Below are positions 28,855 to 34,784 of a DNA stretch of 64,000 nucleotides, in pieces (positions within the stretch are counted from its first letter, which is position 1; each line of letters begins with the position of its first letter). Under the pieces are notes generated by a model that did not search any database, was not told where the DNA came from, and saw only the letters and a program-made list of their open reading frames with translations. The translations under genes were made by a program, and so were the position numbers. The stretch comes from Collinsella stercoris DSM 13279 (GTDB lineage Bacteria > Actinomycetota > Coriobacteriia > Coriobacteriales > Coriobacteriaceae), in NCBI RefSeq assembly GCF_020735465.1, contig NZ_CP085935.1, positions 868,001-932,000 on the forward strand, written 5' to 3'.

Positions 28855-30345
<1,491 letters not shown>

Positions 30346-30418: not shown

Positions 30419-31705
30419 TTACTCAGACGCGGTCTCGTTCGCCAAGCACTGCTTGTCGTACATCTTGACGAACGGGGCGTAAATGAGGAAGCCCAGGACG
30501 AAGCCGATGACGGGCAGCAGGCAGTTCTGCCAAGCAAGGGACTGCAGGAACTCCTGCAGGATGACGGGCAGGGCGGTCATGATGAGCACATGCGGTGGCT
30601 GGAAGAACCCAACCATGAAACCAGCGTAGAAGATGGCGGTCATGATCACGGCGTTCAGGATGAACGGAATGCACAGGATCGGGTTGAACATGATCGGCGC
30701 GCCGAAGACAATCGGCTCGGAAATATTGAAAATCGCGGGCACGACGCTCGCCTTGCCGATGGCGCGGCACTGCTCGGACTTGGCGTGCAGGAAATGGACG
30801 GCCAGCGGCAAGGTGTTACCCGTACCGCCGCAGCATGCAGCGGCGCCGAACAGGAAAACGGGATTGAACACGGGGTCGGCGCCAGAGGCGACCAGCTCGG
30901 CGTTCACGCCGTACGCCTGCATCATGACGGGCATGATGACCATATAGGCGATCATGGTGCCGTGGATGCCGACGCTCCAGAAAAGCATGGCTATGAACAC
31001 GATGACGATCATGCCGGGACCGGAAACAAGTGCGTTGAGCGGGATGGACAAGATGCCCATGATCGCCGCAGGGATGTTCGCGCCCATGACGTTCTGCAAC
31101 AGCGTGTTGAGGCCGAGCCAAAGCACGATATTGGCGAGCAGCGGAATGAGCGTGGCAAAGGAGTCGGAGAGGAACGGCGGCACGGAATCGGGCATCTTGA
31201 GGGCGATGTGATGGTCCTGGAAGAACTTGATGATACGCACGACCAAGATCGCCATGATCATGGCGGTGAACATGCCGCTGCCGCCCAAGAAGGAGGTGTC
31301 GAGCATGCTCTTGGTGGAGCCGTCGGCGAGCGTGACCTGCTGGACGGGAGCGCACACCATCATGAACAGGAACATGGACACGAAGCCGTTTGCAACCTCG
31401 CCCTTCATCTCCAGGTTCTTGGTGTAGCTATAGGCGACGCCGAACGACGCGGCAAGGCCCACGACGCCCATCGTCATGTTGTAGGGCAGCTGAAGCCACT
31501 GGTAGACGGGATCGGTGGTCTCCAAGATGCCGGAGATGTTGAGCAGCATCGAGATGATGGAGAACACCGCGCCGGCGAGGATGAGATTCATCGTGCCCAT
31601 CATGCCGCCGCTGATGGAGCTGAATATCTTGTTGGACTGCATCTTGCCGCCGAGCTCCTGTAGCATCTGGATCGGCTTCGATTCAAACAACTTGTCAAAA
31701 TTCAT
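30419..31705 (-). CDS. celB: PTS lactose/cellobiose-type EIIC permease
   Basis: 428 aa integral membrane transporter with about ten membrane segments, starting MNFDKLFESKPIQMLQELGG. Typical CelB length. AGGAGG precedes the start, and EIIB is encoded 12 bp upstream. Transports and, with EIIA/EIIB, phosphorylates a beta-glucoside. Confidence 0.92.
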   Translation of the reverse strand: MNFDKLFESKPIQMLQELGGKMQSNKIFSSISGGMMGTMNLILAGAVFSIISMLLNISGILETTDPVYQWLQLPYNMTMGVVGLAASFGVAYSYTKNLEMKGEVANGFVSMFLFMMVCAPVQQVTLADGSTKSMLDTSFLGGSGMFTAMIMAILVVRIIKFFQDHHIALKMPDSVPPFLSDSFATLIPLLANIVLWLGLNTLLQNVMGANIPAAIMGILSIPLNALVSGPGMIVIVFIAMLFWSVGIHGTMIAYMVIMPVMMQAYGVNAELVASGADPVFNPVFLFGAAACCGGTGNTLPLAVHFLHAKSEQCRAIGKASVVPAIFNISEPIVFGAPIMFNPILCIPFILNAVIMTAIFYAGFMVGFFQPPHVLIMTALPVILQEFLQSLAWQNCLLPVIGFVLGFLIYAPFVKMYDKQCLANETASE

Positions 31706-31717
31706 AATCTGAGCCTC

Positions 31718-32017
31718 CTATCCCTGAACGAGCCCATCGATGAGCTTGAAGATGTTCGCGCAGTTGCCGATACCGTAATCTGCGGGCGGAATGACGGCGA
31801 CGGGGATCGGGTCGACGGCCTTCTCGACATTCGCCTTCTGATAGGAGACCTGAGGCCCCATGAGGACGCAATCGGCGCCCTCGCACTCGACGGCGGCGTT
31901 GCTCACGCCCGTCGCCGAGATCTCGAACTCGATGCCCTGCTCGGCGGCGTACTTCTCCAGCTTCTTCATGAGAATGCTGGTGGACATGCCCGCAGCGCAA
32001 ACCAATAAGACTTTCAT
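31718..32017 (-). CDS. celA: PTS cellobiose-type EIIB
   Basis: 99 aa; phosphorylated cysteine is C7 in LLVCAAGMSTS, the family P-loop. Accepts phosphate from the neighbouring EIIA and passes it to sugar bound in EIIC. Confidence 0.94.
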   Translation of the reverse strand: MKVLLVCAAGMSTSILMKKLEKYAAEQGIEFEISATGVSNAAVECEGADCVLMGPQVSYQKANVEKAVDPIPVAVIPPADYGIGNCANIFKLIDGLVQG

Positions 32018-32083: not shown

Positions 32084-32434
32084 CTACTCGGCGTGCGCCA
32101 TCTGCTTGTAGAGGTACACGATCTCCTCGATGAGTTCTTGGGCCAACATCGAGGTCATCAGATGGTCCTGGGCATGGACGAGCATGACGTCCACGGGCGT
32201 GTGCTCGCCGTTCGCCTCCTTCACCAAGAGCCCCGTCTGCTGGTGATGAGCTTCAATGCCCGCCTGCTTGGACTGCTCGAGCAGCTCGTCGGCGCGGTCG
32301 AAGTCACCCTCGCGCGCCGCGTGCAGCGCCTCGAAGGCAAGGCTGCGCGCGTTGCCGGCTGCGGCGATGAGGCCGAACGAGAACATCTCCATGCCCTCGT
32401 CGGCACCTCCATTCTCAACGTCATGCTCTGCCAT
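32084..32434 (-). CDS. celC: PTS lactose/cellobiose-type EIIA
   Basis: 116 aa helical EIIA. Active histidine H87 in MLVHAQDHLMTS, with D90 as the metal-site aspartate. About 12 extra residues precede the core. AAAGGAG upstream. First enzyme gene of the operon, directly after the regulator. Confidence 0.94.
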   Translation of the reverse strand: MAEHDVENGGADEGMEMFSFGLIAAAGNARSLAFEALHAAREGDFDRADELLEQSKQAGIEAHHQQTGLLVKEANGEHTPVDVMLVHAQDHLMTSMLAQELIEEIVYLYKQMAHAE

Positions 32435-32529: not shown

Positions 32530-34287
32530 TCAGGGGCTCTCAAGCTGGAAAAGCTCCATGAGGGTCGACCAATCCTGATGCTCGATGAGCCGCGAGATCG
32601 CCTCCTCGTCGGTGAAGACGTCAGCCAGGGCGCTCAAGAAGGCGTCGAGTTCCGGTCCGCCGATGCGCGAGAAGCAGATGAGGAACACCGCTCGCACGCA
32701 GGTGCCTATCTCGTCCCAAACGACCGGCTGGTCGAGCAGCGCGACAGCGACGACGGTGTCGTCGCTCACCGACTCCAGCGGGTGAGGCATGGCGACCATG
32801 TTGCCGAACGAGGTCGTCGCGGCGGCCTCTCGCTCGAAGACGAGCGGCTCCAGCTCCTCATAACCCGAACGGCCATCGCGCACGGCGGCGCACAGGAAGT
32901 GCAGGACCTCATCCTTCGACGTAAGACGCATATGGGGAAAGAACAGCTCGGGATCGAAATGACCGGCGACTATGCACCCTTTGTCCCCAAAGCGCAGCAA
33001 GTCGCGGATCTCATCCGCCGCCGCGTCATCGAAAAAGAACGGGACCTCGCGTACCGGGACGGGGAGCTTCGCGGAGATGGGCACCGTGGTGAACACATAA
33101 TCTATACGGGAGAAGTCCACGTCGGCGACGTGCATGACATCACAGGTCTCTATGGACTCGACATATGAGCCGAACTCCTTTTGGCAGCGGCACTTCAGCA
33201 ACCGGGCGCTCCCCGCGCCGGAAGCGCACACCACGAGGAGGCGCTTGCGGGGCGCTTGGCTGCGTTGGCGCTCCAAGGCGAGCGCAAACGCCATGGCGAT
33301 GTAGCCGATCTCGTCGTTGGACGGGGCGGTCCCGAATTCCCGGTGCAAGACCTCGCAGGCATCGACCGCCATGGACCACGCTAGCGGGTAATGAGTCGTG
33401 ATATCCCCCAACAAGGGGTTCTTGAGGTTCATCTGGCTGCGAAGACGGACCGCAAGCGGAACGAGGTGCCGCGCGAGGTTCATACGCAGCTCGATGTCCT
33501 CGTCGAAATCGAAATGAAAATGCGTTCGGACGGAATCGAGCATGTCGCTCACGAGCGCCCAGATCTCATCGGATATCACAAGGCCGCCCTCGGGCTCCTC
33601 GTTGCTCAGGGCGTCATTCAGCGTGCGCTTGCCCGCAAGGTGAATCGCGATGTAGGCGACCTCCTCCTCGGGCAGCTCCATGCCAAGCCGGGACTTGATT
33701 CCCCCAGCGACGCGGCGGGCGGCTGCGTACTCACTGCGGCGCTCGATGTCGGACATGTCCTCGGACGCCAAGGGGACGTAGCATCCCGCGTTGATGCGCA
33801 CGAGCGCGATGGCGATGTGCACCAGCAGATTCTGATATGAGATGGCATTGATGTTGATGGGGCCGTCGGTAAGAGCGTCCTCCACACTCGCCGCGATCAC
33901 CTCGAGAGACTCGCGCTGCATCCCCATGCGCTGGAACAACGATTCGGGAGCGGACGATGGGGCGGGCGCGGCGTCACCGATACCGCCGAGGAGGCACGTC
34001 GCATCGCCCATGGCGCTGGCGGCAAGGCACAGGCGCCGATTGAGCTCGAGACCGGAGACCCGCATGCCGTAGCGGGGACGGCGCTCCAATACCAAATCGT
34101 ACCGGTTGAGGATGCGCTCGACGTCACGCAGGTCGAGGGAAAGCGTGCTGCGTGAACATGCGCAAGCATCGGCGAGATCGTCGGCGAATACCCAGTCGTT
34201 GCGCATGAGCAGGTCGTTCAGCAGATAGACCACTCGCTCGGCGCGCGTCGCGGGAACCCCGTGAACGAGAGAGGGGGAGCTGTGCAT
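32530..34287 (-). CDS. PRD-containing PTS-regulated activator (LicR/CelR type), main part
   Basis: 585 aa from the first ATG in this frame. Order: Mga-type HTH (about 14-78), PRD1 (H157, H216), PRD2 (H274 region), EIIB-like domain (C354 in LLVVCASGAGSARLL) and EIIA-like domain (H502 in MPHPLES). Such activators bind upstream of beta-glucoside PTS operons when phosphorylated by HPr and unphosphorylated by EIIB. The normal family N-terminus (first HTH) lies just upstream in another frame (34320-34499), separated by a G12 tract; with 10 or 13 Gs the two would join. The ATG at 34287 has no obvious ribosome-binding site, so expression of this fragment alone is doubtful. Confidence 0.88.
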   Translation of the reverse strand: MHSSPSLVHGVPATRAERVVYLLNDLLMRNDWVFADDLADACACSRSTLSLDLRDVERILNRYDLVLERRPRYGMRVSGLELNRRLCLAASAMGDATCLLGGIGDAAPAPSSAPESLFQRMGMQRESLEVIAASVEDALTDGPININAISYQNLLVHIAIALVRINAGCYVPLASEDMSDIERRSEYAAARRVAGGIKSRLGMELPEEEVAYIAIHLAGKRTLNDALSNEEPEGGLVISDEIWALVSDMLDSVRTHFHFDFDEDIELRMNLARHLVPLAVRLRSQMNLKNPLLGDITTHYPLAWSMAVDACEVLHREFGTAPSNDEIGYIAMAFALALERQRSQAPRKRLLVVCASGAGSARLLKCRCQKEFGSYVESIETCDVMHVADVDFSRIDYVFTTVPISAKLPVPVREVPFFFDDAAADEIRDLLRFGDKGCIVAGHFDPELFFPHMRLTSKDEVLHFLCAAVRDGRSGYEELEPLVFEREAAATTSFGNMVAMPHPLESVSDDTVVAVALLDQPVVWDEIGTCVRAVFLICFSRIGGPELDAFLSALADVFTDEEAISRLIEHQDWSTLMELFQLESP

Positions 34288-34319
34288 GAGGGCACGGTAT
34301 GCGCCCTCATCGGCGATCT

Positions 34320-34499
34320 CTAGGAAGTATCCCCCCCCCCCCGACGCTTTGCGAGGGAGGCCGCACGTCCGAGGCGCTCATTCGCCTCGCGCGCGAAGGA
34401 GCGGATGCTGCGCGTGCTCACACCCATGCGGGCGGCGATGGCATCGGGAGTGATACCGGGCTCGGCCTCGACGCATTCGAGCAACTCGCGCCAGCGCAT
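34320..34499 (-). pseudogene. N-terminal HTH segment of the PRD regulator, out of frame
   Basis: 59 codons from ATG 34499 encode an HTH_11-like domain (LLECVEAEPGITPDAIAARM, GVSTRSIRSFAREANERLG) with a strong GAGAGGGGGGAG ribosome-binding site, then reach the G tract and a stop (TAG at 34320-34322). Reading across the tract in the other frame gives GYFLEIADEGAYRAL and then the main regulator, the natural continuation in LicR-type proteins. A joined protein would be about 656 aa. Could be a phase-off state, a true mutation or a homopolymer sequencing error. Confidence 0.85.
34331..34342. repeat. Homopolymer C12 (G12 in the coding strand)
   Basis: Twelve consecutive C on the plus strand inside the regulator coding region. 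Only 10 or 13 would keep the frame. By far the longest homopolymer noticed in the window. Confidence 0.97.
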
Positions 34500-34784
34500 G
34501 CTCCCCCCTCTCTCAGACGCACGCCGCCCCGCGGCGCCACATTCGCTTCCAAGGGAAGTCTAACCCGAGGGGGAGCATCCGCTCCAACGCGACTCTTGCC
34601 GTGAATATTGGCAAAGTCTCGGATGGAGACAGGATTGCCAGATAAACAGGGTTCTAGGCCGAGTCGACGCCGAAGACGGCATCGGAGCTGGCACCGCGCG
34701 GTGGAAGAGGCGCGCCGTTCACGGAAAGATTCAGACCGCTCACGGGCGAGAGAACGGCCGAGCATCAATGACGGGCGCAGTCCC

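Follow-up and report, generated by a model that had tools for sequence, protein, structure and literature searches.

We found that a run of exactly twelve Gs splits the gene of a LicR-type PTS regulator into two reading frames in Collinsella stercoris DSM 13279, within the 64,000-nucleotide stretch of genomic DNA analysed here (the window). From comparison with related sequences, we consider it likely that this tract is a contingency locus and that the regulator is phase-variable by replication slippage. An earlier note, made from the letters of the window, had proposed that slipped-strand changes in tract length switch beta-glucoside use on and off. Phase variation of this kind is still the best reading, one in which this strain would switch. 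It draws on a G13 tract in a paralog and on an ortholog pair with G9 and G10, and is further backed by differences in length between sister species at other G tracts and by the lack of matches to MutS and NucS. We favour it over an isolated error because a second LicR-type paralog of this genome and one member of the ortholog pair, from another genus of the family, show the same kind of break.

The split regulator and its operon

The tract was read directly from the sequence, in the minus-strand context ...AAAGCGTC-G12-ATACTTCC... (Table 1). The reading frame that starts at ATG 34499, with the strong ribosome-binding site that the earlier note had assigned to it, crosses the tract as Arg-Gly-Gly-Gly and, 59 codons long, ends at a TAG (34322-34320); the remaining part of the regulator (GGGGYFLEIADEG...) lies in a different frame, open from the tract to 32530. 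The homopolymer sits, as had been claimed, where the N-terminal HTH segment meets the remainder of the protein, and the two parts, out of frame at present, would be joined by a tract of 10 or 13 Gs. By length arithmetic the joined regulator would have 655-656 aa, in agreement with the approximately 655 aa first given. Alignment with intact relatives places the tract in the wing (the R-GGGY turn) of the first HTH. Among the hallmarks of contingency loci are a homopolymer in a coding region, long enough to slip, a product that depends on the frame, a tract length that differs among isolates or within one clone, and a phenotype that changes reversibly; for the first two we found here G12 and two separate frames, and for the third, length differences between species at homologous tracts of other genes and regulators.

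Table 1. Features of the regulator locus and the downstream operon (window coordinates)
Feature	Position	Strand	Basis
Ribosome-binding site GAGGGGGGAG by ATG 34499	34501..34510	-	direct reading
N-terminal regulator piece, HTH_11-like, 59 codons	34320..34499	-	translation, HTH_11 E 1.7e-4
G12 homopolymer splitting the regulator frame	34331..34342	-	direct reading, alignment with intact relatives
Rest of regulator: second HTH, PRD1, PRD2, EIIB-like stretch, EIIA_2	32530..34342	-	open frame and domain matches
PTS EIIA, lactose/cellobiose type, intact	32084..32434	-	PF02255 E 8e-34
PTS EIIB, lactose/cellobiose type, intact	31718..32017	-	PF02302 E 8e-19
PTS EIIC, cellobiose/lactose family, intact	30419..31705	-	PF02378 E 6e-43; TIGR00410 E 2e-69
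GH1 6-phospho-beta-glucosidase, intact	28855..30333	-	PF00232 E 3e-124; NF007158 E 5e-182

Pfam profile matches identified two PRD stretches (PRD, E 1.4e-32) and PTS_EIIA_2 (E 7e-16) in the remainder, giving the LicR-type hallmark of two PRDs and a C-terminal fructose/mannitol-type EIIA. The match of the N-terminal piece to HTH_11 was slightly below the gathering score in bits; the N-terminal hallmark was found in an intact ortholog from another species of the window's genus (G044), which matched HTH_11 (E 4e-10) and the Mga HTH (E 3.5e-7). The EIIB-like stretch between PRD2 and EIIA carries the VVCASGAGSARLL motif and had no Pfam match at threshold. On these matches, in the two pieces and in the intact ortholog, the G12-bearing gene is a LicR-type PTS regulator (HTH_11, Mga HTH, two PRDs and EIIA), the identity that it had been given from the letters.

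The regulator adjoins a predicted beta-glucoside PTS operon (IIA, IIB, IIC and GH1), and the earlier view that a PTS operon follows the regulator was borne out by four intact downstream genes. LicR of Bacillus subtilis is an HTH-HTH-PRD-PRD-EIIB-EIIA activator of the licBCAH operon, and the arrangement is alike in the two cases: a regulator of this type beside genes for lactose/cellobiose-type EIIB, EIIC and EIIA and for a 6-phospho-beta-glucosidase. We know of no homopolymer switch in LicR. The adjacency is kept in G044, where the gene order is as in the window (nicotinate phosphoribosyltransferase-like, regulator, IIA, IIC, GH1, proA-like, with names given from similarity to genes of the window). 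This syntenic ortholog, with its HTH_11, Mga HTH, two PRDs and EIIA, is free of any tract and encodes the identical GGGY by GGC GGC GGT instead of a G run; the long G run was therefore probably derived in the lineage of the window.

Long G runs in the genome and in related regulators

G/C runs of this size are rare in the window, which has six runs of length 6 and, beyond these, a single one of 12, with none of 7-11. Under independent bases about 35 runs of at least 7 were expected, and G12 was the only one observed; its length is far beyond chance. GGG accounts for just 17% of the Gly codons in window genes. Across the 2.46-Mb genome, a single contig in the record, yet with an estimated contamination of 5.51%, window-count arithmetic put the G/C runs of length 7 at 31, those of length 8 at 14 and those of length 9 or longer at 18. 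Genome tracts came from a pattern search, followed by local reading of the sequence.

The two longest G tracts of the genome (12, at genome 902331, and 13) each split a LicR-type paralog. The G13 tract (at genome 1608591) falls in the linker that joins the second HTH to PRD1 and splits its gene there; this gene precedes lactose/cellobiose-type PTS genes of its own. The two sites are non-homologous, one being in the HTH wing and the other in the linker before PRD1, and the two genes belong to separate clades. Four members of the LicR-type subfamily were found in the genome, and the chance that both longest tracts would hit four genes of ~2 kb is near 1e-5 if these are taken as random targets, a post-hoc figure; tract-bearing regulators were counted after the first one had been seen. 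A further LicR-type paralog (genome 1542315-1543691) consists of a single open frame from which the PRD1 region is missing.

Among 84 regulators of the family from the order, we counted 209 runs of length 5 and 11 of length 6, and for lengths 7 to 13 there were 1, 1, 2, 1, 0, 1 and 1, respectively. Runs of at least 7 are thus scarce in these genes (7 in 165 kb, versus the 209 of length 5). In three of the 84, a long G run splits the frame: the window gene, the 1608591 paralog and one in G122. Tract-bearing regulators are hence a minority, which counts against phase variation. Regulator splits in G044 (L100) and G148 (L232) were also considered as tract splits and left uncounted, having no G/C run of at least 7, and poly-G counts from G008, G033, G034 and G035 were left out as probable assembly artefacts. 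The split regulator of G122 has G10, with a broken frame, whereas its LicR-type ortholog in G212 has G9 in the same linker and an open frame; both genomes are from g5, another genus of the family, and the DNA identity of their orthologous regulators is 76-90%. Tract-bearing regulator genes fall in separate clades, and therefore the tracts probably arose more than once.

Differences in length were also observed between closely related genomes. The sister species G006 and G013, of the window's genus, differ at two tracts (10 versus 12, and 9 versus 10), with identity of ~98.7-98.9% around them. A G8 in G241 was dropped as a candidate switch, since it lies at a probable ribosome-binding site and a near-identical homolog has G6. 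For the window tract itself, no length variants were detected in a scan of viral contigs, and a scan of genome contigs for a second isolate of the species gave distant relatives alone.

The earlier note had named a homopolymer sequencing error as the main alternative, and we keep it as a rival, though an improbable one: the tract would be real and its true length in the strain in frame, the recorded length resulting from sequencing or assembly. Homopolymers of 12-13 are the commonest site of such miscounts, and a systematic miscount could put all four gene-splitting coding tracts of the genome out of frame. On phase variation there would be no need for all four tracts that clearly split a frame to read out of frame, as they do. 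However, an error leaves unexplained why the two longest tracts of the genome occupy two paralogous regulators, as well as the open and broken orthologs in other assemblies. The other genes in the window appear intact, with long open frames, and even a true G10 or G13 would remain slippery in the gene.

Mismatch repair and the proposed switch

We found no match to MutS_I in 44 of the 45 genomes searched; the single match, in a 3249-aa frame, is unlikely to represent MutS. NucS had no match in the window's genome, and weak NucS_C matches in relatives were rejected as NucS (frames of about 160-220 aa, mostly below the cut-off). Consistently, Castaneda-Garcia et al. reported that NucS and MutS-MutL are both missing from all Coriobacteriia analysed (PMC5290159). 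Unrepaired slippage is the likely driver of tract-length change, and the sharp fall in runs >6 would fit selection against slippery runs unless they are useful or harmless.

The lack of MutS and NucS matches would also suit one-way decay, in which a short G run was lengthened by neutral slippage without mismatch repair, leaving the regulator a young pseudogene. Many of the long tracts are intergenic, and a third paralog lost PRD1 in frame, a sign of evolutionary looseness in the family here. Apart from the split, however, the two halves of the regulator are intact, as is the entire operon, and despite the strong depletion of runs >6 in regulators, long G runs recur in separate clades, and near the starts of surface proteins too; decay is in our view unlikely. 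Programmed slippage, by which RNA polymerase or the ribosome would slip on the tract and the 12-G gene would yield some full-length regulator in a fixed proportion, is very hard to credit: the G run might serve as a slippery site, and 20 nt past it begins a strong hairpin (atgagggcgc / gtgccctcat, window 34285-34311, z about -3), but this distance is greater than the one usual at -1 frameshift sites, no comparable hairpin follows the tract in the other tract-bearing genes compared, and tract position and length differ among regulators, of which an in-frame G9 version exists.

Under phase variation, replication slippage would add or remove Gs, and with MutS-MutL and NucS both missing such changes would go uncorrected. 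One length class in three would leave the LicR-type activator in frame. Lengths within this class would differ in glycine number alone; the tract forms glycine codons in a loop, the HTH wing, and steps of three bases should therefore leave the activator working. The remaining two classes would end translation right after the tract. The sequenced copy would belong to an OFF class: cells would produce an HTH stub of 59 residues but hardly any activator or none, and the downstream IIA-IIB-IIC-GH1 beta-glucoside operon would stay uninduced. Rare slips would restore ON cells, so that the population could hedge between use and non-use of beta-glucosides. We infer that switching in this strain is reversible, that activation is lost in the OFF state and that the arrangement is of benefit.

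Homopolymer switches of this kind have been described in other bacteria. In Bordetella pertussis, one extra base in the poly-C tract of bvgS cuts the regulator short and shuts down its regulon (PMC1891110). The window gene likewise has a G/C homopolymer within a regulator gene; however, bvgS encodes a virulence sensor kinase with C6/C7, whereas the tracts here are G9-G13, affect a sugar-PTS activator, recur in paralogs and occur in bacteria without known mismatch repair. In Mycobacterium tuberculosis, homopolymer frameshifts in the G7 run of glpK toggle carbon use, as described in PMC11898584; on that account, as in our proposal, an actinobacterial carbon-use function is placed under a homopolymer frameshift, but there the run is short and lies in the enzyme itself, and here it is long and lies in the regulator of the operon. 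Gardnerella, another actinobacterial host-associated genus with homopolymer tracts, although from a different class, has many G/C tracts of at least 8, partly at surface-protein genes and with length variation in vitro; in the available part of the report PTS regulators are not named among the targets (PMC11287997). A search of the open-licence literature, where absence is weak evidence, turned up no report of phase variation through homopolymer tracts in Collinsella or any other member of the Coriobacteriia. The mechanism is already known in kind, and within that literature the taxon and the target appear to be unreported.

Other G tracts in the genome and the genus

A broader proposal, on which we are evenly divided, is that Coriobacteriaceae, with neither of the known mismatch-repair systems, operate poly-G switches across the genome, and that LicR-type activators gained such switches several times independently, which would give each cell a random, heritable and reversible choice of dietary or host sugars. 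Phase variation has been described mostly for surface structures of pathogens; in this member of the Coriobacteriaceae, the likely targets include sugar-uptake regulators, glycosidases that are secreted, and genes close to loci for exopolysaccharide and pilins. A strain taken for sugar-negative, or a gene called a pseudogene, may be merely OFF, and the lineage offers a natural experiment on homopolymer behaviour in the absence of MutSL and NucS.

Two of the frame-splitting tracts are in genes for large predicted secreted proteins. A GH20 protein is interrupted in its signal-peptide region, out of frame, by G11 (genome 2393525-2393535), and a ~1000-aa protein with an F5/8 C domain has an out-of-frame G9 (genome 2242897-2242905) at the end of the signal peptide. 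Other tracts precede genes: a G10 immediately upstream of a SpaA-type pilin gene, a G10 positioned 111 nt before a Wzz gene, a G9 ahead of an RpiR regulator gene and a G11 a few bases ahead of a zinc-ribbon gene. Several long tracts are plainly intergenic. Flp-like pilin genes across the window's genus carry G6-G10 at one homologous position. These pilin genes have overlapping ATGs in two frames, followed by the tract, and G9 and G10 each fit a different start codon.

We also observed features of the sequence around some tracts. A long inverted repeat (gatttgttgcagtg... / ...cactgcaacaaatc) encloses the G10 at genome 2356565-2356574 in its loop. A transposase-like ORF ends ~300 bases upstream of the GH20 G11 tract, and a near-identical ORF is found near the tract at 1893896. 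This last tract and the one at genome 590198 have an identical 13 bases, tcttcatggcttt, close behind them.
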